Below, piece by piece: positions 6,326 through 63,622 of a stretch of 63,622 nucleotides of DNA (position 1 is the first letter of the stretch; the number at the start of each line of letters is the position of its first letter). The position numbers were made by a program, and so were the translations under genes. Origin of the DNA: a virus. The stretch spans positions 1 through 63,622 of IMG/VR virus record IMGVR_UViG_3300045747_000073; one strand, given 5' to 3'. The notes under the pieces are model-generated. The model was not told the origin of the DNA. It made no database searches and was given only the letters and a program-made list of their open reading frames with translations.

Positions 6326-6519
6326 CCAAACTTCCTTTCCAATAATGCTAAGATCTCTTCCAAGTCAATATCAGAGACCTCATCCAAGTCATCTAAATCG
6401 AACGGCTTGTCAGGGTATATCTTAAGCAACTCATCACGAGTTACCCACTGAGTATTACCCGGCCAGTAACCCGCATGGTAGTGCATGTCATCGGGGTATT
6501 CACTTCCTAGATCATGCAT
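6322..6519 (-). CDS. Small acidic protein downstream of ribonucleotide reductase, 65 aa
   Basis: The frame overlaps the 3' end of the reductase gene by 13 bases from ATG 6519. A TTG at 6534 would extend it to 70 aa. The C-terminus is very acidic (DLDDLDEVSDIDLEE). It keeps the compact, coupled operon spacing. Function unknown. Confidence 0.72.
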   Translation of the reverse strand: MHDLGSEYPDDMHYHAGYWPGNTQWVTRDELLKIYPDKPFDLDDLDEVSDIDLEEILALLERKFG

Positions 6520-7417
6520 ACACCACTCACACAAGCTAATTGTTGAACACCCTCAACCTGATCGGAGTATTCCTCGAAGTCATTCCAATCAATCCCGGCA
6601 GGAATCTTAGCAGCCATATCCTTGTACTCCTGTTCAGTGCATTCTTCGTAGGGTGCTTGTTGATATGTGCCACCATCGTCCGGCAGGAACGATACGCCAG
6701 TACACTCATCGAAGTGGTTATAAACCCATGACCCAACCTCCATCCATTCATTCTCCTTTATGGAGATAGTTACTGATGGATTATGGTCAGTGTACCATGT
6801 CTTGTACTTGAGCCATAGTTCTAAGTGTTGAATCGCCGTAAGATCCTTCTTAGTAAACCCGGCGCATTTCTGTGGAAACGAGAAAACCACAGTATCTTGA
6901 GGTTTCATAACGCAGTCTTCATGAGGGAATCCTTGCTCAATAAGGAAGGTAGTCATTGGATCCTTCTTATCCTGTCGAATACGACGAATGTAGAAGGGTG
7001 CATGCCCCGGGTGGATACCACTAGATGTCTGAGTAAGCTGGCTCACCGTGCCCTCAGGTTTGATCGTGGTGATTGCCTTTGACCGTGGGATGCCCAGGGT
7101 ATCAGCCCAGATATTGTTTGTCTCTGTGGCACAATCTGATAGCTTCTTGAGGATGTGCTCAAGAGAGATGATAGACTCACCACGGAGGATTGGGTTGTCA
7201 AGGATACCAGTCATGGATACACCCAACAAACGCTCCTCTTCAGTGTTCTGCTGCCAGATCTTACGCAGATACGGGAAGTCAGTGAGGGTGGCTTGCATGG
7301 TACCCATGATAGTAGCAATGCGTACTTTCTCCAGCAAGGTTTCGATGGTATCTTGTGGGGATACTACTACAGTAGATAGGTTACAAAATTGTTGTGGACG
7401 CAATAAAATCTCTCCAC
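6507..7417 (-). CDS. nrdJ: Class II ribonucleoside-triphosphate reductase, exon 2 (C-terminal)
   Basis: This is the second exon of the reductase; exon 1 is 8294-9263. Joining T at 8294 to GT at 7417 restores NPCGEILL and then QFCNLS, the active-site segment of adenosylcobalamin-dependent RTPR. Spliced, the gene has 627 codons (626 aa plus stop), in phase. The C-terminal end CVSGVCMI (Cys619 and Cys624) matches the shuttle cysteine pair of the class II enzyme. The enzyme makes dNTPs from NTPs for phage DNA synthesis. An internal ATG-like start in this exon has no ribosome binding site and lacks the catalytic cysteine, so independent translation would be inactive. Confidence 0.93.
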
Positions 7418-7513
7418 CTTACTGTTACTTCGGTTGTTGCGTACAACCTACTGACCACTTGCCTGTGGCGGGGTGACTCTTCATTCACCCTCTAGAGTTT
7501 CTTTTGTTATACT

Positions 7514-8140
7514 CTAGATCAGACTATCGCATGTAATATGTTTCCACGTTCTATTGTATCGAATATTGTTTATAACACAGTGTTTAACATCAAAGATATT
7601 GGCAATTTCTTTTGTAGTTTTATCGGTGATTAGCAAGCTTTTAATTTCCTTAACTTGCTTCTCATCCAGAATTGCTCTACCATTCTTTGATCCGGCTTGT
7701 ATACCTCTATAGATATCCGGTCGTTCTGAATGTATCTTCAATGCTCGTTTGCTACGGGCTTCTTTGGTGTCCTTCTTGCTTATGGCAAGTTTGGTTGCCT
7801 CAGAAGTTGCTTTCCTGTGCTTTTCTTTATTCTCGGGTATGTTGTACCAACTAGGTTCAACCCCTAACTCACCACCCATTTGAAGGTTTAACCCAATCAT
7901 TTGTGTGGGTCTATAGTAAGCCTCTGCCAAGAGAGCTTCCTGTAAACTTAGGCTTTGATCCATCATTTCTATTTCGATATCTGACCAAGCGGTTGACTTT
8001 AAGAAACATACCAGAGGTGTCTGGTGTTTGTTCCTTCTGTGCCCACGAATTCGCTCAGATAGGTCTTTAGTTATTCCAACATAGCCCTCTGACATAACGT
8101 CTGTGTGACCTTTATGCCTAATCCAATATACTGTGTACAT
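7514..8140 (-). CDS. Intron-encoded GIY-YIG homing endonuclease, 208 aa
   Basis: The N-terminal GIY-YIG domain shows YTVYWIRH...GYVGITKDLSERIRGH, with the catalytic Arg and downstream Glu (LLAEAYY). The C-terminal part (KQVKEIKSLL...TTKEIANIFDV) looks like a helix-turn-helix for target binding. It lies wholly inside the intron, so it probably spreads the intron into empty reductase genes. ATG 8140 is chosen because GAGAGGGG precedes it; a GTG at 8155 is also in frame. Promoter element E2 lies about 40 bases upstream. The N-terminal domain is similar in pattern to the protein at 56144. Confidence 0.9.
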   Translation of the reverse strand: MYTVYWIRHKGHTDVMSEGYVGITKDLSERIRGHRRNKHQTPLVCFLKSTAWSDIEIEMMDQSLSLQEALLAEAYYRPTQMIGLNLQMGGELGVEPSWYNIPENKEKHRKATSEATKLAISKKDTKEARSKRALKIHSERPDIYRGIQAGSKNGRAILDEKQVKEIKSLLITDKTTKEIANIFDVKHCVINNIRYNRTWKHITCDSLI

Positions 8141-8178
8141 AATTACCCCTCTCACTTAGTCGTTCACGGTGAATAACT

Positions 8179-8200
8179 TTCTCCTATAGGTACCGGCTAG
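8179..8200 (-). promoter_or_regulatory. Candidate phage-RNAP promoter, element E2 (inside the intron)
   Basis: Minus-strand CTAGCCGGTACCTATAGGAG, inside the group I intron upstream of its endonuclease gene. It shares 21 bases with E6 at 26655-26675. Its position suggests that the homing gene is transcribed separately from the reductase message. Confidence 0.6.
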
Positions 8201-8293
8201 CGCCCTGCAAAGAAAACTATCCTTCCGCCCTGTCGCCTACTGCTAGGCTTCCAAGTCAATCAGAGAGGGTTTTAAATCCGCATGTAATTATTT

Positions 8294-9263
8294 ACGGATT
8301 GACCCCATATTCTACGTCAGCACTCCGAAGACCCTTCTTACTAGCCTGCTTCTGTGCTGCTTCACGATTGAAGATACCACGTTCACCGGAGTGGCTATCA
8401 TAGATTGACAACCATTCCTTCATGAACTCACCGATGGAAGGCTTCTCAGTGTATACTGCAGAGTTATTAGCTAGTGCTCGTTCTGGGGTATGCTCCCACC
8501 AGTTACCAGACTTAGCTGTGGAATGGGAGTAGCTATTCAGGTCACCCAAGCTAATGAGTGCGGATCGACGTACACCACCCACCACTACAACCTCACCAAT
8601 CTTGCACATCAGATCATGGCACTCGATAGGTTTCAGCTTACGACCCTGAGCCTGTTTGAACTTCTCTACGGTGTATTCAAACAAAGAGACCAATGGGGCA
8701 GGACCACTAGCACGACCACCGAAGGTCTTGAGTGGTGCTCCGGCGGGACGTACCCGGGAGACATCCCAACTGAGGATATTACCTTTGTACAAGCTATAGA
8801 GCAACGTCTTGTATGCCTCGCACCAACCCTCTTTGCTGTCCTCTACAGGGATCTTGATGAAGGTGCAATCATACAGGCTAGGAACCTCTGGAAGCTTCTC
8901 AGTGTATTGTTTCTCACAAGAGAAGCCTACACCAGTACCATTCAACAGGATATACATGGCTTCATCGAACGATCGTGGGTCATCTACCGTGATATACGAA
9001 CAGTTGTAGCCGGACACCGGTGATCGTTCCAATGCTGGGCCTGCGGTCATGACTGAGCGCATGGATGGCAGTGCCTTTAGACTGACAATGTTCTCATACA
9101 GGGTGCCCCAGATACGAGCATCTTTAGGGATCTTGTTGTCGAGTTTAGTACTGAAGTAATCCACCCAACGGAATGCTGTCTCATCCCAGTCTTCACGACG
9201 GTTCTGATCTGGGAGATAACGGGAGTACCTGGACTTCGAGATTACCTTTTGATACTGATTCAT
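8294..9263 (-). CDS. nrdJ: Class II ribonucleoside-triphosphate reductase, exon 1 (N-terminal)
   Basis: The exon holds residues 1-323 of the adenosylcobalamin-dependent reductase. Recognisable family stretches are RSVMTAGPALER, GYNCSYITVDDPRSFDEAMY, LLNGTGVGFSCE, SWDVSRVRPAGAPLKTFGGRASGP and GERGIFNREAA. The exon ends at GVNP plus the first base of the next codon. Without splicing a TAA follows at once, leaving an enzyme without its catalytic Cys324. Its start overlaps the stop of the GIY-YIG gene at 9260 by ATGA. Confidence 0.93.
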
Positions 9264-9727
9264 TTATTTTTCCTATTCAAAATATTGTTTCCTGCTGAGA
9301 CTAATCGTGCACCCGTAACACTTTTGTTACTGCTATAAATACCTAATATACCCGGTATCTGGTATAGGCGTACACCTGAATTGAGTAATTCCACGGCCCT
9401 GAGTGCGTGCTCTTCCGTGTAATTGTAAGCCTTGAATACGTCTGGGTTACCTTGTTTGTTGAACAGGGGTTTAAATAGCTTTATTGTCGAGCTTTCCTTT
9501 TGTAAGGCGGTCGGCCTATCTAACATTGTTTCTATAATTACGGCTACATCTGCCATAGTATAGCCCATATAATACAGATCGGTTATCCATTTAGTATGAT
9601 CTTCACTTCTGCTAGTGCCAGATGACGTTCCCGTTGCCCATGCACGGGATCCCGTTCCAATTCCTATATACATTATCTCACCAGTTTGTGGATCTATATG
9701 GTTATAGATGTAATACAACTCCTTCAT
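9260..9727 (-). CDS. Free-standing GIY-YIG endonuclease, 155 aa
   Basis: The gene is wedged between the RNA polymerase and reductase genes. Motifs are LYYIYNHIDP, IMYIGIGTGSRAW and a later Glu (KESSTIKLFKPLFN). The C-terminus (EEHALRAVELLNSGVRLYQI) looks like a resolvase-type helix-turn-helix. ATG 9727 follows AAGGAGGCCC; the upstream ATG at 9742 overlaps the polymerase gene and is less likely. It is probably a homing endonuclease that inserted next to the reductase. Confidence 0.88.
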   Translation of the reverse strand: MKELYYIYNHIDPQTGEIMYIGIGTGSRAWATGTSSGTSRSEDHTKWITDLYYMGYTMADVAVIIETMLDRPTALQKESSTIKLFKPLFNKQGNPDVFKAYNYTEEHALRAVELLNSGVRLYQIPGILGIYSSNKSVTGARLVSAGNNILNRKNK

Positions 9728-9735
9728 GGGCCTCC

Positions 9736-11925
9736 TTAACAAAAGAAATACTGACTGTTTTGGACATCGTTTATATCCAGTGATCCGAGAACTGGTTGTG
9801 TTGCTGAGAAGCTAGGTTTATACTCCATCAAGTTATCTTCGAGTAGATCAAAGAAGTTTTCTACATCATACTGAGCTATGAAGGTCATCTTAGTGATGTC
9901 CTGCAATAGATCAACGTCAGACGCATGACAACTAAAGCTATCATGTACCGCAGCGAATGACCCATTGAATGCTACAATGGTGTTGGCCATGTGAGCAGCA
10001 TCATAACTATGTACTACATTCGGGCTGATCCCCGAGGCGAATGATCTCCGGCATGGGATCTTCTCTCCGGTAGTCTTACCGACTACATCTATCTTAACCA
10101 CATGCATGATCCTGCCTGTCTTACTCCCGGGTAAACCCTTAATGGTTCCCCTCTGCTTGTGCTCATGCTGAAGGTTTGCCTTGTATACGACCGGGAAACC
10201 GCTAGGTGTCTTCCAAGACAACTCATTAGAGCCATTAGCGAGTTCATGCTCAGCCATCTTCTGAAGGTACTTAGTAGTCTTCAGTGGTCCTTGGCATACC
10301 TCGTTGATTGAGTCTATGAGCTTACCAGCCAACATCTCGCAGTCATCTTCGCTGATGTTGTACTTGTGGTTGAACCCTAGCATATGCAGATCATCGTACA
10401 TGTTAGAAGCTATCCGCTTCTTACCTGCTGAGTACGCACGAGTCATAGAGCCCCTCTTAGCAATGCCCTTGCGGATATGCTTCATGGGTATACCACGACT
10501 AGCGAACCAGTCAGGGAGTTTACCTACTAGGTTCTTAGCCACGGCTACGTAGAAGTCCTTCTGTACAGCTTCATTCGTGAGTGACACTAACGATCCTGCT
10601 GCTTTGTCCTTGGACATTGCTGCAAGGTGTTGCCAGCCATTGTTCGAACCATCGATACCCACGGGTAGCCCTGAGTAGTAAGGCTTGCCTAATGCTTGTG
10701 CTATGGTGTAGTTAAAGAGTTCTACACAACAAGATAAGAACCCATACGGCTTCTCTGCTTTAGGTGTCAACTGCTCAGCCTTACCCAACTTAGCAATCAT
10801 GCTATAGTTCTCGATAGTCCACTGAAAACGATCCTCCATCGTCATCTTGTCTACTGATATGGTGTCCAGACCTTCTTCTTCCAAGTACTTCCGGTAGTCG
10901 GTTGTCGTCCAGCTAGGGATCTCATTGATATCATATGATTGATTAAATGAGGTTGCAGCCTTGATGCATATCCACCGATAGCCACTCTTAGTAACCTCCT
11001 TTGTATCCTCAAACAAGAAAAGACTTCTCGCAAGGTCTCCCCCTTGATAAGACAAGAATGATTCAGTGTAGTACATACGCCCACGGTAGTCACAAGATAC
11101 CTCCTGATAGAATGTTTTATCCAGCAGCATTACTGCCTTCTTAATTACTTGCTCGTACTCGTACTTCTTGGAGATCAGTCGTTGTACTCGTGTGTCCCTG
11201 TGTCCAAGGAAGGGGGTGCCTTCGTAAGTGTATTCGCCCCTTGGGAGATCGCCAATTGGATACGAGCCGATAACGCCATCTCCATCAACAAGCTCGATAG
11301 TTGATTTTGGGCTTTCTGCAATTGCTGTGGCGAGTACTGCACCATTGATTTTCCATCCTTGCTGGCGTAGAACTTCCAAGGCTTTAACGAATCGCTCATT
11401 CAAACACTCCTTAAATTTATCTTCGTCAGTCCATCCCTTGATGAATGACTGGTGGGTTAGCGGGCTTTTAAGCCCCGATATCCTAGGTAACGGGACAAGG
11501 GATGTGCCAACGAGTACTGGCTTGATACTGTTAATGTCACCCTTGAGTAGCAGCATGTATGGCGCTTTGAAACCATCGTATGCCCTCTCGATATCTATCA
11601 AGTCATCCTGAAGAAAGGTTTCAATCAGGATGTCACCTAACGCAAGTATATCCTTAATATATGGGTCAATAAGCCGCAGCCTACTAGCCAGTTGAGTACC
11701 TATCATGGTGCTCACAAAGGTTAGTTTAACTGCGGCCATATGGGTTGCACTCTTATTACGGATACAGTACCGTGTTAATGAGTCCCATGCTTCCTCTACA
11801 ATTTCCTCCAATTCGAATTCCCATAATGGGTATTGTGCCAGAAGTAAACAACCTTGGTTGTACATTTTTTCTGACTCCGGTATTACCTTATTGACTCGTT
11901 GAGCCAAATAAACCGATGGATCCAT
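9736..11925 (-). CDS. T7-type single-subunit DNA-dependent RNA polymerase, 729 aa
   Basis: All hallmark motifs are present: DYRGR (279-283); motif A DGSNNGWQH with catalytic D425; motif B KRGSMTRAY with K490 and Y498; motif C HDSF with D662. The protein is shorter than T7 RNAP (883 aa), mainly in the N-terminal domain, as in many marine and environmental podophages. It should transcribe middle and late genes from phage promoters; the TTAGCYGGTACCTAATAGG elements are the best candidates. The start ATG at 11925 follows AAGGAATCTA. It lies next to the primase-helicase, within the replication block. Confidence 0.97.
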   Translation of the reverse strand: MDPSVYLAQRVNKVIPESEKMYNQGCLLLAQYPLWEFELEEIVEEAWDSLTRYCIRNKSATHMAAVKLTFVSTMIGTQLASRLRLIDPYIKDILALGDILIETFLQDDLIDIERAYDGFKAPYMLLLKGDINSIKPVLVGTSLVPLPRISGLKSPLTHQSFIKGWTDEDKFKECLNERFVKALEVLRQQGWKINGAVLATAIAESPKSTIELVDGDGVIGSYPIGDLPRGEYTYEGTPFLGHRDTRVQRLISKKYEYEQVIKKAVMLLDKTFYQEVSCDYRGRMYYTESFLSYQGGDLARSLFLFEDTKEVTKSGYRWICIKAATSFNQSYDINEIPSWTTTDYRKYLEEEGLDTISVDKMTMEDRFQWTIENYSMIAKLGKAEQLTPKAEKPYGFLSCCVELFNYTIAQALGKPYYSGLPVGIDGSNNGWQHLAAMSKDKAAGSLVSLTNEAVQKDFYVAVAKNLVGKLPDWFASRGIPMKHIRKGIAKRGSMTRAYSAGKKRIASNMYDDLHMLGFNHKYNISEDDCEMLAGKLIDSINEVCQGPLKTTKYLQKMAEHELANGSNELSWKTPSGFPVVYKANLQHEHKQRGTIKGLPGSKTGRIMHVVKIDVVGKTTGEKIPCRRSFASGISPNVVHSYDAAHMANTIVAFNGSFAAVHDSFSCHASDVDLLQDITKMTFIAQYDVENFFDLLEDNLMEYKPSFSATQPVLGSLDINDVQNSQYFFC

Positions 11926-25661: not shown

Positions 25662-26036
25662 ATGTCAGAAGTTAGCAAAGCGGATAAATATCCACAGCTT
25701 ATTCCTTTCAACAGTGAGGCTGCACGGGCTGCACAGCGTAAATCAACAGAACAAAAGTGGTGCCAACGGGCTGTTGCAGAAAACTACAAGCTTAATGCTC
25801 GTACTTTCATCAAGATCATGGCTGATTTGCCTGACCTTGGCCCCTTGGAAATTATGAAATTAGCCATACACGACGCACTAGATAAGAGCGATTTTGAGGC
25901 TGCTGCCAAGTATGCGTCTATGCTTGCCGAATATCAAATGCCCAAACTTGCTCGAATTGAATCTACGGTGACCACTCGCACGTCAGACCTCTCTGATGAG
26001 GAGCTTAAGGCTATCATTGACAAGGAAGGATTATAA
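25662..26036 (+). CDS. Terminase small subunit-like protein, 124 aa
   Basis: The C-terminal half (DALDKSDFEAAAKYASMLAEYQ, then KLARIEST and LSDEELKAII) matches the end of many small terminase subunits. The N-terminus (EAARAAQRKSTEQK) is helical and polar. AAGGATAAATT precedes the ATG. The gene is on the plus strand, 6 kb from the large terminase and within an opposed operon, which is unusual. It would bind the packaging site. An alternative is a small DNA-binding protein of another role. Confidence 0.6.
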   Translation: MSEVSKADKYPQLIPFNSEAARAAQRKSTEQKWCQRAVAENYKLNARTFIKIMADLPDLGPLEIMKLAIHDALDKSDFEAAAKYASMLAEYQMPKLARIESTVTTRTSDLSDEELKAIIDKEGL

Positions 26037-26037
26037 T

Positions 26038-26664
26038 ATGTTTTTCGTATATCTCCATAAGAAAGGAGATACGGGCGAACCTTTCTATGTTGGTAAAGGT
26101 ACAGGTAAGAGGATTTATTTTCACTCTGGCCGAAACCAATGGTGGCATAATATTGTTGCTAAACATGGTATAGCCTACGAGTTCTTAGGTTACTTCGAAC
26201 TTGAGGTGGACGCTTTCGCGTATGAGAAGGACAGGATTGCCTTCTATCGTTCAGAGGGCTACACTTTATGTAACCTTACTGATGGTGGTGAGGGTGCATC
26301 TGGTCGTGTTCTTTCGGAAGAATCTCGTGCCAAGATGATTGCTTCTGCCAAGGCTAAACCAGCACAATCACAAGAGGCTAGAACTAAACGTAGCCAATCT
26401 ATGTCTGGTCGTGTTCGTAGCCCTGAGCACTGTGCTGCTCTTAGTGAAGTTCAGAAAGGTAAACCACATAGCTCTGAGCATACAGCAAAGGTTGCTCTCG
26501 CTCGTCTTGGTATGAAGCTTTCTGATGAAACTAAAGCCCGTATGTCTGCCTCTAGCAAGACCCGTCCTCCTATCTCCGAGGAAACAAGGCAGAGGCTTCG
26601 TGATGTTGCTGTTCTTCGTGAACAAGCTAAGAAGCAGGCACAAGCCTTACTCACTCTCCTATAG
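26038..26664 (+). CDS. GIY-YIG endonuclease with NUMOD3-like repeats, 208 aa
   Basis: FFVYLHKKGDTGEPFYVGKGTGKR is the catalytic start; HSGRNQWWHNIVAKHG is nearly the same as in the gene at 22516. At least four NUMOD3-type helices follow (SEESRAKMIASAK, SPEHCAALSEVQKG, SSEHTAKVALARLG, SDETKARMSASSK). ATG 26038 follows AAGGAAGG. The stop codon lies in the reverse complement of promoter E6. Confidence 0.92.
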   Translation: MFFVYLHKKGDTGEPFYVGKGTGKRIYFHSGRNQWWHNIVAKHGIAYEFLGYFELEVDAFAYEKDRIAFYRSEGYTLCNLTDGGEGASGRVLSEESRAKMIASAKAKPAQSQEARTKRSQSMSGRVRSPEHCAALSEVQKGKPHSSEHTAKVALARLGMKLSDETKARMSASSKTRPPISEETRQRLRDVAVLREQAKKQAQALLTLL

Positions 26665-43972: not shown

Positions 43973-45226
43973 ATGGGCTACAACGTAACAGAAGGGGCTG
44001 TAGTAGGTGACTCCCCGGGTGGCCAATATACTACAGCAGCGGGTAACAGCGGTTATTCCCAGACAGCAGGGTCAACAGACAGTGGTGCTCCGGGTGGGCA
44101 ATACGATACCTCAGCTACACCTAACACTATTATATACAAAAACATAGCTGTTGAATCCGCTGCTGGTGCCTCGATTGATGCGGCACAGGCGCTGGTCTCT
44201 GCTGAATCTGCCGCAATATCGGCTATAGCAGCAGCTTCCAGTGCTATAACCGCAGAAGATGCAGCAGTATTAGCAGCAAGTAACTCTAGGCTTACTGCTG
44301 GCACAGCTACAGCCGTGGCACCCGGGGGTGCTCCTACCGTTAGTATCACTGGTGCTGCTGGCTCACAGGTGCTTGACCTAGGTGTTGTTACTGGTGCTAT
44401 CGGAGCAACAGGGCCACAGGGTATTCAAGGTATTAAGGGTGACACTGGGACGCAAGGCAACCAAGGTATTCAAGGTGACACTGGGCCACAAGGTACTCAG
44501 GGTATCCAAGGTATTCAGGGAGACACGGGACCACAAGGTATTCAGGGAGACCAAGGTCTCACAGGTGACACAGGTCCCCAAGGCATTCAAGGTATTCAAG
44601 GTTTAACTGGTAACACTGGGCCACAAGGTATTCAAGGAATCCAGGGCAATATTGGCCCAATAGGGGTGAATTGGTTAGGTGCCTGGGATAGTGGTACCGC
44701 ATACATAGCCAATGATGGTGTATCAATAGGGGGCTCTTCCTACATATCCATTCTGGCTAGCACAAACCAAGCCCCACCTAATGTATTATACTGGGATCTT
44801 TTTGCCGCCAAAGGAGCAGATGGTGCAGCCGGTGGAGGTGTTATTAGTGTTACGGGGGCAAGCCCTATTGTTTCTAGTGGTGGGGTTAATCCTGAAATTA
44901 GTATCCCGGTAGCAACCAGCTCCGTAAATGGCTACTTAACATCAGGGGATCATACAACGTTCTCTGCTAAGGTTGATGGTCCGGTTAGCTCTACTAGCAA
45001 CAGTGTTGCTTTGTTCAATGGCACATCCGGTAAGCTAATTAAAGAGGGTGGTACTCTTGGTACTGCAGCCTTTGCAAGTGCTTCCGCTATGGTACCTACT
45101 GGTGGCACCATAAACCAAGTTCTTATTAAGAACAGTGCAACAGACTACGATACCTCGTGGTCAACACCCTCAAGCGGTATTACAACAGGTAAAGCAATTG
45201 CTATGGCAATGATCTTTGGATTCTAA
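43973..45226 (+). CDS. Tail fibre with collagen-like domain, 417 aa
   Basis: About 30 Gly-x-y triplets (GPQGIQGIQGDTGPQGIQG and alike) lie between an Ala-rich coiled region (AVESAAGASIDAAQALVSA) and a C-terminal domain. Collagen-like triple helices are common in phage fibres. The triplet DNA is highly repetitive and could change in length. AAGGAGGT precedes the start. Confidence 0.87.
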   Translation: MGYNVTEGAVVGDSPGGQYTTAAGNSGYSQTAGSTDSGAPGGQYDTSATPNTIIYKNIAVESAAGASIDAAQALVSAESAAISAIAAASSAITAEDAAVLAASNSRLTAGTATAVAPGGAPTVSITGAAGSQVLDLGVVTGAIGATGPQGIQGIKGDTGTQGNQGIQGDTGPQGTQGIQGIQGDTGPQGIQGDQGLTGDTGPQGIQGIQGLTGNTGPQGIQGIQGNIGPIGVNWLGAWDSGTAYIANDGVSIGGSSYISILASTNQAPPNVLYWDLFAAKGADGAAGGGVISVTGASPIVSSGGVNPEISIPVATSSVNGYLTSGDHTTFSAKVDGPVSSTSNSVALFNGTSGKLIKEGGTLGTAAFASASAMVPTGGTINQVLIKNSATDYDTSWSTPSSGITTGKAIAMAMIFGF

Positions 45227-60726: not shown

Positions 60727-63622
60727 ATGGACGATTACCTGAAACAGGCTAAGGAGCTACGATTAAAAGCGGAAGCTGGCCAAGAACCTTTGCCAGAATT
60801 CTCTGTTGATGGTAAGCCCGTGGCACAACAAAGACAAGTGGATGCTGACACCCTTAATCTTGGTGGTGAAGCATTCCGGTTGAAGGGGTTTAATGCCCCT
60901 GAAATCGCTAAGAATCGGGCGGGGGTCTACACCCCGTCTGATGTTTCTAATGACCCCACTGAGCAGAACATGCGGAAGGTGGCTAGGCTTGGTGGTTACA
61001 CTAACCTTGCCAGAGATGGTAAGGATGCCTATGGCCGTACGGTAGCGGATCTGGGTGGCCTTGGTGATACAATGACTAGCCTAGGCCTCACCGATATTAA
61101 CTCTTTCTCTAATCCTGAAGCCATTCAACAAGGAATGAACTACAGCAATGCCAGTTCCTTGTTCCCAGAAGAAGCTAAGAAGGACCCATTGCTTGCTCTG
61201 TCTATGCAGAACAAGATTGATAGTCCTACTGTTCTGGTTCCTAAAGTTACTGTCCTGAATAAGTCGCAGTATGCAGAGACCAACCGTATGGCGGGGGTTG
61301 CAGCAGCTTCCGAAGCGGCTAAGGAGGTTGATCGTCTTACAAAGATACTCAACACCGAGCAACTACGCCCGGAACTTCGGGAGAAACTAACTAAGCAGCT
61401 AGGCATGGCGCAACAGCAGGTGTTCCTTGCTGCATCCACCCCAGCTATTGCGGGTAATGTATTGATCAATGACCAAGATCGTTACTTAGACAACCAAGCT
61501 AAGTCCCAGTTTTCTACTTCCCTGCACAATGCAGGATTAGAAATGCTCAGGCAGCTTGGGGGTATTGGTGAGATCTCTGGTGATCAACTCAAATGGGATT
61601 GGTTAGCTGATAAGGGCAAGAGCTATGCTCAGACCATTAAGGCCGAGCAGAATGATCTACCTGATACACTAAGCAGCTTTAAGGATATCAAGACAACTGA
61701 TACTTGGTCTACAGTCAAGGACACCACTACATATCTAGGCAATTTAATGGCAGGTACACTCCCATTCGTAGGTATGATGACAGCATCTACCCTAGCTACA
61801 GGGGGTATGAACCTCCCGGGCTTAGCTGCTATGGGTGTTGCTTCTATCCCAAGTGCTCTTATGTATACTGGTGGCTTCTACAATGACCAACCCGAAGGCA
61901 AGAAGAATGCGCCACTAGCTCTGTCTATGGGTGTGGCCTCTGGTGTTTTAGACACGTTTGGTCTTGGTGAGATGGCATTCAAACATGAACTGTTTAGTAT
62001 TGCTGGTAAGAAGGAGTTAGCTCAAGCCATTATCAAGTCTGGTAAGGCGGGTTCATTAGAAGAAGCTGAGAAGCTTATTGAGGATGCCACTAAGAAGCAG
62101 CTTGTTGATCTATCAACCATCGGTTCGGCCTTTGCTAGGTATCAATACCAATCCAAAGAAGCAGCATTACGCGGCTTGGGTTCCCTTGCTAAATCCACCG
62201 CTACCGAGGGTACCACTGAAGCACTCCAACAAACTGCCGAGATGGTGGCTAAGGGTGGTGAGTGGAATATGGATGCTCAATATGAGCGTGACTTCTACCA
62301 GCAGCTTCTTGACGCGGCTGTTGGTGGTGGCGCTATGGGCGGTGCATTCCACTCAGTAGGTGCGGTAAAAGATGCGGCTAGCTGGCATGCACTTGCTAAT
62401 GCGGGTGAAGCCTTCCAAGGCACCATGACAGAGGCACAACGTTTCCAAGCGGATAATCGTGAGAAGCTACTCGATAAATATGAGGGTGTTGCTGACCCAG
62501 AACAGTTTGGTGGTTACACTGATGTGAAACAGATGGCTGGGCAAGTTAGTTCTATGCCTACCAATTCACTTGAGCATGACATCCATAAGATACCTGTGGC
62601 TGATGGTGCATGGAACAGCTTTAAAGCTATTGTAACGGATCCCGCTAAACTACTTAGACAGCTTGTTGATACCGCCATTCCTACTATTACAAATGAAGAT
62701 GGAACGTTCAAGACTAACCTAGCCTACATCAAGGCTATTATGGGTGGATCTGGTATACTCCCGGGTGACAGCGCAGCAGGATATAAGCAGCGGCTCATGG
62801 GTCGTTGGGACTCGTCCACGGCTGAGGAACTGGCTACAAGCCTTAGGACTAGTGTGGCAAGAGCTAATGCTATGGTGCGTGAAGCTTGGCAAACCACTTG
62901 GTCTAAGAACGAGAAGCTTGATCCCACTAGCCCACTACAGCAATGGAAAGATAGGATGGACTCTACGTTAGCTGACATGTATAATGTGGCTTCCGAGGCT
63001 GGTGTGGATACTAGTGAAGTGGCTAGCCCACATGCTATGTTTGAGAGTTCGGCTGTACACCCAGAGACCATCATAGCAAACAAAGAGAAGATCATAAATG
63101 AGTTGGTCAACACTGGTGTTGCAAATCGAGCTATCGCTAAGGGTGCATTGGATAATCTGCTGTCGGGTGACCGTACTAAGGCCGCTAATGCTCGTGCATT
63201 CCTTGCTGAGCATGGTATGTTTACTAACCCCAAGCTTAATAAGTACTTGGAGAGCAACCTGTTCACTAGCATGGAGAACTTGAAGGATCGTCTTAGTTCT
63301 GCAGCAATGCACTCCACTTATTTAGGTCAGGATGGGTCTAACCTTGTTAAGCTCCTTGATCGTGCCCTGGCTAATGGTGAGCTTACGGAAGAAGAATACA
63401 AGCTTACCGCTAAGGAAGTAAAGGACTGGTACGACATAACTACGGGGCAGTATCATCCCTTGGATAAGACACCAAGACTCAAGAAGGTATTGGGGTGGGC
63501 AACCACACTAACCATGCTGGCTAGCCTAGGTAAGGCGGCTCTAAGCTCACAGGTAGAGCTTGCTATGTCTACCCTAGGTACGCCGGGTGACTTGGTAAAC
63601 AAGCAGATTAAGAGCTACACTA
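60727..63622 (+). CDS. Giant internal virion (ejection) protein with N-terminal SNase-like domain (5' part)
   Basis: AGGAGTACT precedes the ATG. Residues 38-110 match the staphylococcal nuclease fold: VDADTLNL (D41), RLKGFNAPE (R51, E59; the usual Asp is Asn56) and DAYGRTVA (R104). Spacings R51-N56-E59-R104 equal those of SNase R35-D40-E43-R87 within one residue. A hydrophobic stretch (NLMAGTLPFVGMMTASTLA, then PSALMYTGG) follows near residue 340, and long helices after it. The gene continues at positions 1-1414 for 1380 aa in all. It probably crosses the envelope with the DNA; the nuclease-like head may bind or cut DNA. Confidence 0.82.
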   Translation, partial: MDDYLKQAKELRLKAEAGQEPLPEFSVDGKPVAQQRQVDADTLNLGGEAFRLKGFNAPEIAKNRAGVYTPSDVSNDPTEQNMRKVARLGGYTNLARDGKDAYGRTVADLGGLGDTMTSLGLTDINSFSNPEAIQQGMNYSNASSLFPEEAKKDPLLALSMQNKIDSPTVLVPKVTVLNKSQYAETNRMAGVAAASEAAKEVDRLTKILNTEQLRPELREKLTKQLGMAQQQVFLAASTPAIAGNVLINDQDRYLDNQAKSQFSTSLHNAGLEMLRQLGGIGEISGDQLKWDWLADKGKSYAQTIKAEQNDLPDTLSSFKDIKTTDTWSTVKDTTTYLGNLMAGTLPFVGMMTASTLATGGMNLPGLAAMGVASIPSALMYTGGFYNDQPEGKKNAPLALSMGVASGVLDTFGLGEMAFKHELFSIAGKKELAQAIIKSGKAGSLEEAEKLIEDATKKQLVDLSTIGSAFARYQYQSKEAALRGLGSLAKSTATEGTTEALQQTAEMVAKGGEWNMDAQYERDFYQQLLDAAVGGGAMGGAFHSVGAVKDAASWHALANAGEAFQGTMTEAQRFQADNREKLLDKYEGVADPEQFGGYTDVKQMAGQVSSMPTNSLEHDIHKIPVADGAWNSFKAIVTDPAKLLRQLVDTAIPTITNEDGTFKTNLAYIKAIMGGSGILPGDSAAGYKQRLMGRWDSSTAEELATSLRTSVARANAMVREAWQTTWSKNEKLDPTSPLQQWKDRMDSTLADMYNVASEAGVDTSEVASPHAMFESSAVHPETIIANKEKIINELVNTGVANRAIAKGALDNLLSGDRTKAANARAFLAEHGMFTNPKLNKYLESNLFTSMENLKDRLSSAAMHSTYLGQDGSNLVKLLDRALANGELTEEEYKLTAKEVKDWYDITTGQYHPLDKTPRLKKVLGWATTLTMLASLGKAALSSQVELAMSTLGTPGDLVNKQIKSYT
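63456..63622. repeat. Terminal overlap (copy 2) with window start
   Basis: Repeats positions 1-167 with one change (g at 63582, a at 127). The change is silent in the reading frame of the ejection protein, as both codons read Thr-(Pro)-Gly context with a third-base difference (aca/acg). Confidence 0.85.

Follow-up and report, generated by a model that had tools for sequence, protein, structure and literature searches.

A putative mobile group I intron with an endonuclease gene in the thiyl-radical cysteine codon of a phage class II ribonucleotide reductase

Background

The ribonucleotide reductase (RNR) gene is a widely used marker for marine viruses. It is also the nucleotide-metabolism gene most often split in phages, with two recorded cases of split nrdJ, in P60 and phiYS40 (PMC3653736). 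Introns and inteins of small-subunit RNR genes cluster at the metal ligands and the tyrosyl radical (PMC8772380), and the split nrdA enzyme of phage Aeh1 works, according to PMC2988022. More generally, more than half of the viral group I introns listed in a database from 2025 belong to subgroup IA2 (PMC11835236). Mobile group I introns that interrupt RNR genes close to codons of the active site have been described before.

Several described systems resemble the locus presented here, an interruption of the catalytic cysteine codon of a phage class II RNR gene. The T4 td intron, as described in PMC3073962, likewise combines a phage group I intron with a GIY-YIG gene (I-TevI) whose 3' end codes for part of P7 and whose ribosome-binding site is sequestered. 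However, I-TevI lies in P6 and the present gene in P8, the gene interrupted here is a class II RNR, and only three bases separate P7 from P3. In the same source (PMC3073962, Table 1), the Bacillus thuringiensis nrdF intron also unites an RNR gene with a GIY-YIG reading frame that overlaps the core at P7, but it concerns the small-subunit gene, its frame is in P6a and it has P7.1 elements. In the bnrdE gene of Bacillus phage SPbeta, the catalytic cysteine of RNR (SNL|C) is precisely where a selfish element is inserted; that element is an intein, the intron of the gene lying elsewhere, and SPbeta was therefore rejected as a same-site intron case. Staphylococcus phage Twort nrdE has group I introns in a phage RNR large-subunit gene, but its catalytic NLC motif is uninterrupted, and it too was rejected.

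The isolated Roseobacter phage CRP-118 (OR420741) has a related class II RNR whose corresponding codon (AAT CCG T|GC) is interrupted by a member of this intron family. Unlike the present intron, this insert is 172 nt long, lacks an endonuclease gene and has another type of 3' end (GTGTGAG). The gene was deposited as two RNR genes, and the words "intron" and "split" have no matches in the available part of the CRP-118 paper (PMC11092137). No report of an intron at this codon in a phage class II RNR was recognised in the open-licence literature. Unexpected here are the exact codon and the fact that two intron families occupy it repeatedly, across RNR types.

Results

An RNR gene interrupted at its catalytic cysteine

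The window analysed here spans 63,622 bases and comprises an entire IMG/VR virus record. Its ends carry a near-identical 167-nt direct repeat (1-167 and 63456-63622; 166 of 167 positions identical), so the contig is probably a complete genome. Besides RNR, it encodes a single-subunit RNA polymerase, a primase-helicase, a DNA polymerase, a ligase, a terminase, a portal and an SU10-type capsid protein. In the structural gene region, collagen-like GGN triplet repeats were noticed at 44402-44655 (+).

The RNR gene, on the minus strand, is interrupted at the NP|C motif (Table 1). Both parts match PHROG 367, ribonucleotide reductase (E 4e-87 for exon 1 and 6e-76 for exon 2). Exon 1 ends ...GGG GTC AAT CCG T (8294) and exon 2 starts GT GGA GAG ATT (7417). 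Joined, they form a single 626-aa frame free of stops and frameshifts, with the catalytic motifs present and NPCGEILLRP at residues 322-331; the split of the Cys324 codon proposed in the initial annotation is thus exact to the base. The best solved relative of the joined protein is 1L1L, a ribonucleoside triphosphate reductase (E 4.5e-45). Cys324 aligns with 1L1L residue 408, which is taken to be the thiyl-radical cysteine, and NPCGE and the C-terminal C-x4-C, presumably the redox-active pair, are aligned too. Based on PF21995, on the similarity to 1L1L with its insertion domain and on the conserved catalytic cysteines, the enzyme is classified as a monomeric class II (B12) RNR. An intact reductase elsewhere in the genome had been named as one of two findings that would refute the proposal; no second RNR was found in the 63,622-base record, the exon 1 search giving one match and PF02867 the two exon pieces only. 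Imprecise loss of the intron would destroy the RNR, and it may be lethal if the phage needs its own enzyme.

Table 1. Features of the interrupted RNR locus (positions in the window)
Feature	Position	Strand	Evidence
RNR exon 1 (residues 1-323 and first base T of the Cys324 codon)	8294..9263	-	PF21995 and PF17975 above cut-off
RNR exon 2 (GT of Cys324, C335, C-terminal C619 and C624)	6507..7417	-	PHROG 367; 1L1L alignment
Group I intron, 876 nt, within the Cys324 codon T|GT	7418..8293	-	R2 model match; codon rebuilt; same-site introns elsewhere
P1 5' strand AATCCGT, last exon bases	8294..8300	-	sequence reading
CAT, P10 guide, pairing with exon 2 GTG (7417-7415)	8282..8284	-	P10 covariation, 27 introns
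Internal guide GCGGATT, P1 3' strand; U-G wobble 8294-8281	8275..8281	-	sequence reading
P3 5' strand CCCTCTC	8263..8269	-	covariation
P4-P5 domain (CTTG/CAGG, GCCTA/TAGGC)	8229..8255	-	covariation
P6 domain (CGG/CCG), long P6a loop	8167..8227	-	covariation
P7 5' strand GACTA	8157..8161	-	covariation
P3 3' strand GAGAGGG, likely also endonuclease Shine-Dalgarno	8147..8153	-	covariation and comparison of homologs
GIY-YIG homing endonuclease ORF, P8 loop, ATG start, 208 aa	7514..8140	-	PF01541 24.6 bits (cut-off 22.6)
J8/7 and P7 3' strand (ATGCGA TAGTC), within the final codons of the endonuclease ORF	7522..7532	-	first model and sequence
P9-type 3' domain, predicted hairpins, ending AGTAACAGTAAG with terminal G	7418..7513	-	fold z-score
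Small free-standing GIY-YIG-like ORF, overlapping the exon 1 start	9260..9742	-	PHROG 5356 only (unknown function, E 2e-5); GIY-YIG by eye

A group I core outside the reach of Rfam

Rfam gave no group I match in the window, and RF00028 gave none against 7300-8500 (1201 bases, E up to 10) or against the CRP-118 intron (E up to 1). For this reason a separate family model was built. At least 120 IMG/VR stretches contain CTGATTGACTTGGAAGCC, a motif that the introns of the window and CRP-118 have in common; among the matches listed, 126 occurrences yielded 90 compact cores, of which 74 were distinct and 48 fell below 90% similarity. The alignment (48 rows) comprises 47 of these 48 diverse cores, L088 being left out for its long loops, together with the window, whose endonuclease region was excised by hand, so that the window's P8 pairs in the alignment are partly the analyst's choice.

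Across the 48 rows, 95.1% of 1483 cells are paired in the P3-P8 fold, which shows 249 two-sided changes, against 74.9 in shuffles (0/500) and 20-55 in slid controls. P4 and four of the five P7 pairs are nearly invariant; since these pairs hardly vary, covariation in P7 concerns a single pair and the support for P4 and P7 is weaker. The core pairs form in 31 of 31 cases in the window and in 29 of 31 in CRP-118. R2, a covariance model of 47 rows that excludes the window, matches the core at 8273-8120 (87.2 bits, E 8.4e-19 over 417 kb). The first model, which includes the window, also detects the J8/7-P7 3' part at 7586-7516 (19.6 bits, E 0.02). Covariation and the R2 match together indicate a P3/P7 pseudoknot core, P3-P8, in the window, and the identity as a group I intron claimed in the initial annotation is borne out on both grounds. 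The search with group I models that had been proposed as a check gave a divided answer, negative for RF00028 and positive for R2. The postulated P1 pairing and U-G at the splice site are likewise in place, as is the G that forms the final base of the intron. The 3' region 7521-7418 has a fold z-score of -4.7, with four hairpins predicted.

RF00028 produced just two matches on six compact family contigs (20.8 and 24.7 bits, below the 50-bit threshold), and these assign the same bases to P3-P7 as the family fold. The gathering score that the family misses is a database threshold and not a defining feature of the ribozyme. Only 4 of 50,697 isolate phage records match the composite core by blastn; as judged from these searches, the family is common in uncultured phages, rare among isolates and below the Rfam threshold. 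Subgroup IA introns are defined by P7.1/P7.2 between P7 and P3. Only three bases (8156-8154) separate the P7 5' strand from the P3 3' strand in the window, and in this respect the intron does not fit subgroup IA.

An endonuclease gene interwoven with the core

The initial annotation does not mention that the intron contains an endonuclease gene, that this gene overlaps the core, or that introns recur at this site. A structure model of the protein (mean pLDDT 73.7, pTM 0.41) has an N-terminal domain predicted with confidence, followed by three C-terminal helices, and residues 198-208 fall below pLDDT 50. Foldseek returned no match at E 0.001 or below for this model; the UvrC GIY-YIG domain was retrieved at E 0.009 and the I-TevI catalytic domain at E 0.07, and weaker matches include helix-turn-helix DNA-binding domains. 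A protein search with the endonuclease alone returned three distant loci only. Among the matches listed, a homologous gene is present in eight same-site introns including the window, the other seven being 46-53% identical. Y20, R30, E73 and N85 are invariant in all eight and the window frame is open; the roles of these residues are presumed from I-TevI. Other same-site introns hold HNH-like ORFs (L270 and L323, motif by eye) or no ORF.

In six of the eight homologs an ATG lies 5-8 nt downstream of the P3 3' strand, with GTG or TTG there in the other two (by eye). It is likely from this comparison that the P3 3' strand serves as the Shine-Dalgarno sequence of the endonuclease; P3 3' strands are purine-rich throughout the family, and the arrangement could be a coincidence. 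The stop codon lies 3-5 nt upstream of the J8/7-P7 strand in six of the eight. In the window and L247 the ORF extends through that strand, where it reads CDS. Such extension into the core is termed "core creep" in PMC3073962, and in the aligned sequences it is visible here between homologs. Pairwise identities of endonuclease and RNR correlate (Spearman 0.49), and the closest relative of the window's endonuclease (L274, 53%) sits in the most distant RNR of the set (33%), a pattern that suggests incongruent histories only in part.

The ORF 9742-9260 next to exon 1 is possibly a free-standing homing endonuclease adjoining the gene that hosts the intron. Elsewhere in the window, homing-endonuclease-like ORFs with NUMOD3 motifs were seen at 23094-22516 (-) and 25996-26664 (+), one of them with a weak GIY-YIG match.

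Recurrence at the same codon

Of 85 close RNR loci, 83 are uninterrupted, the exceptions being the window and CRP-118 (L002), and no intron core was found in the flanks of the 83. The pattern AATCCGT-gap-GCGGATTNAAA, which is P1 written for this codon, occurs in at least 120 stretches of IMG/VR. Among the matches listed, 99 were distinct and 38 had an RNR 5' exon by blastp to 12 seeds. A Pfam check of ten seeds gave the monomeric class II type (PF21995) and PF00317/PF02867 types, with support below cut-off for two (L213 and L282). Among the matches listed, an RNR 3' exon could be identified for 27 of the 38; the remaining 11, several on contigs that end first, were excluded from the 27. In all 27 a terminal G is followed by GT or GC, restoring the cysteine, and then by [GSACV]E[IQ] (among the matches listed). 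P1 is fixed by the search pattern and is therefore not evidence in this survey; the 3' end is. Among the matches listed, these introns range from 167 to 1176 nt.

R2 matches the window, 31 of the 37 other RNR loci (among the matches listed; the model was itself trained on L002 and L121, among others) and one bacterial locus. It has no match in L213, L231, L237, L246, L256 and L312, nor in the SPbeta and Twort controls. The six R2-negative same-site introns look like a second group I family, since four contain sub-threshold RF00028 matches inside the intron (20.5-29.1 bits). On these matches, two intron families occupy the same codon, in distantly related RNRs of at least two Pfam types. Of the 116 matches listed from bacterial genomes, 1 is an RNR intron (L403, a Lachnospiraceae MAG), whose contig is perhaps a prophage. 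In L272, the RNR gene is interrupted a second time, downstream of the intron in the cysteine codon, and another GIY-YIG-like ORF is present.

Guide variation and codon spelling

Among the matches listed, the guide base adjoining the P1 pairing is A with TGT (7) and G with TGC (17), in 24 of 24 introns of the main family, and the P10 base is Watson-Crick in 25 of 27 introns, a value reached by 0 of 100,000 shuffles. This statistic is inflated by the relatedness of the introns; both states span different RNR types.

The AATCCGT spelling yielded 39 RNR introns in 215 distinct matches, among those listed; the 39 include the bacterial L403 and, it is believed, the window itself. Four other Asn-Pro-Cys spellings yielded 2 in 310 (AATCCAT 2/106, AATCCTT 0/104, AACCCTT 0/55 and AACCCGT 0/45, again among the matches listed), and the two AATCCAT cases carry the matching guide GTGGATT. 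The control covers exact guide complements and RNRs resembling the 12 seeds. AATCCGT is the spelling in 4 of the 83 intact relatives. Since 2/310 stands against 39/215 among the matches listed, and against this background of 4/83, the introns are, as far as these comparisons reach, tied to the nucleotide sequence and not to the amino acid. Co-conversion of the flanking exon during homing would explain the AATCCGT bias.

Discussion

The element is very probably a mobile group I intron with a GIY-YIG endonuclease gene in P8, inserted in the codon for the thiyl-radical cysteine of a monomeric class II RNR from a phage, and its splicing is predicted. Guanosine would attack after the U of the P1 U-G pair; the freed AAUCCGU end would then attack after the terminal G with P10 as guide, and exon joining would restore UGU and an active enzyme. 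In unspliced mRNA the junction codon would be UAA, so that translation would stop after NP. Intronless RNR genes would be cut by the endonuclease at the conserved site and would acquire the intron through repair. Moreover, ribozyme folding and endonuclease translation would probably compete, because the putative Shine-Dalgarno sequence is the P3 3' strand, the start lies in P8 and the last codons are the P7 3' strand.

The same arrangement could arise if the insert no longer spliced and RNR were made as two separately translated, assembling polypeptides. Both pieces are indeed open frames, CRP-118 is annotated with two RNR genes, and according to PMC2988022 the Aeh1 split nrdA enzyme is functional. 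However, the cut falls inside the catalytic codon, so that neither piece carries the cysteine, and the ribozyme core is intact and covarying, as are P1, P10 and the terminal G; such a split enzyme is very improbable here. It is equally improbable that the enzyme has been lost, leaving a decayed gene with an intron that is dead. The host may supply its own RNR, but the exons are without stops or frameshifts and keep the catalytic motifs, the core is paired at 31 of 31 tested positions, and the endonuclease has an uninterrupted frame whose key residues are invariant in eight homologs. Although the contig comes from a metagenome virus collection, an assembly or binning artefact uniting unrelated sequence is less credible still and close to negligible, given the precise restoration of the codon, the same-site intron in the isolate CRP-118 and dozens of other contigs.

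Beyond the mobile intron of the window, it seems somewhat probable that group I introns have converged on the thiyl-radical cysteine codon of RNR. On this reading, two or more unrelated core families, some with a GIY-YIG or an HNH endonuclease and some with none, would each have inserted at exactly this point, in uncultured phages whose RNRs are monomeric or of other types. Their RNA guides would follow the third base of the codon, and where a GIY-YIG gene is present, translation and folding would be mutually exclusive, the start signals being bases of core strands. This would be a clean case of selfish introns choosing sites that a gene cannot change: the amino acid of the target codon is fixed, its free third base varies and the intron guide varies with it. 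Since the family splits RNR yet falls below the Rfam threshold, an RNR gene of a phage may be taken for two separate genes. Because CRP-118 is an isolate, splicing and homing are directly testable.

The survey also brought up further arrangements of the family. L089, L101, L106, L112, L120 and L165 hold same-family introns whose P6 regions contain similar-looking sequence, seemingly an ORF of the opposite strand; most of these follow a CA[AG]GA[CT]CC exon end, in another gene. The contigs L131, L161, L176 and L180 carry two or three closely spaced introns of the window's family.
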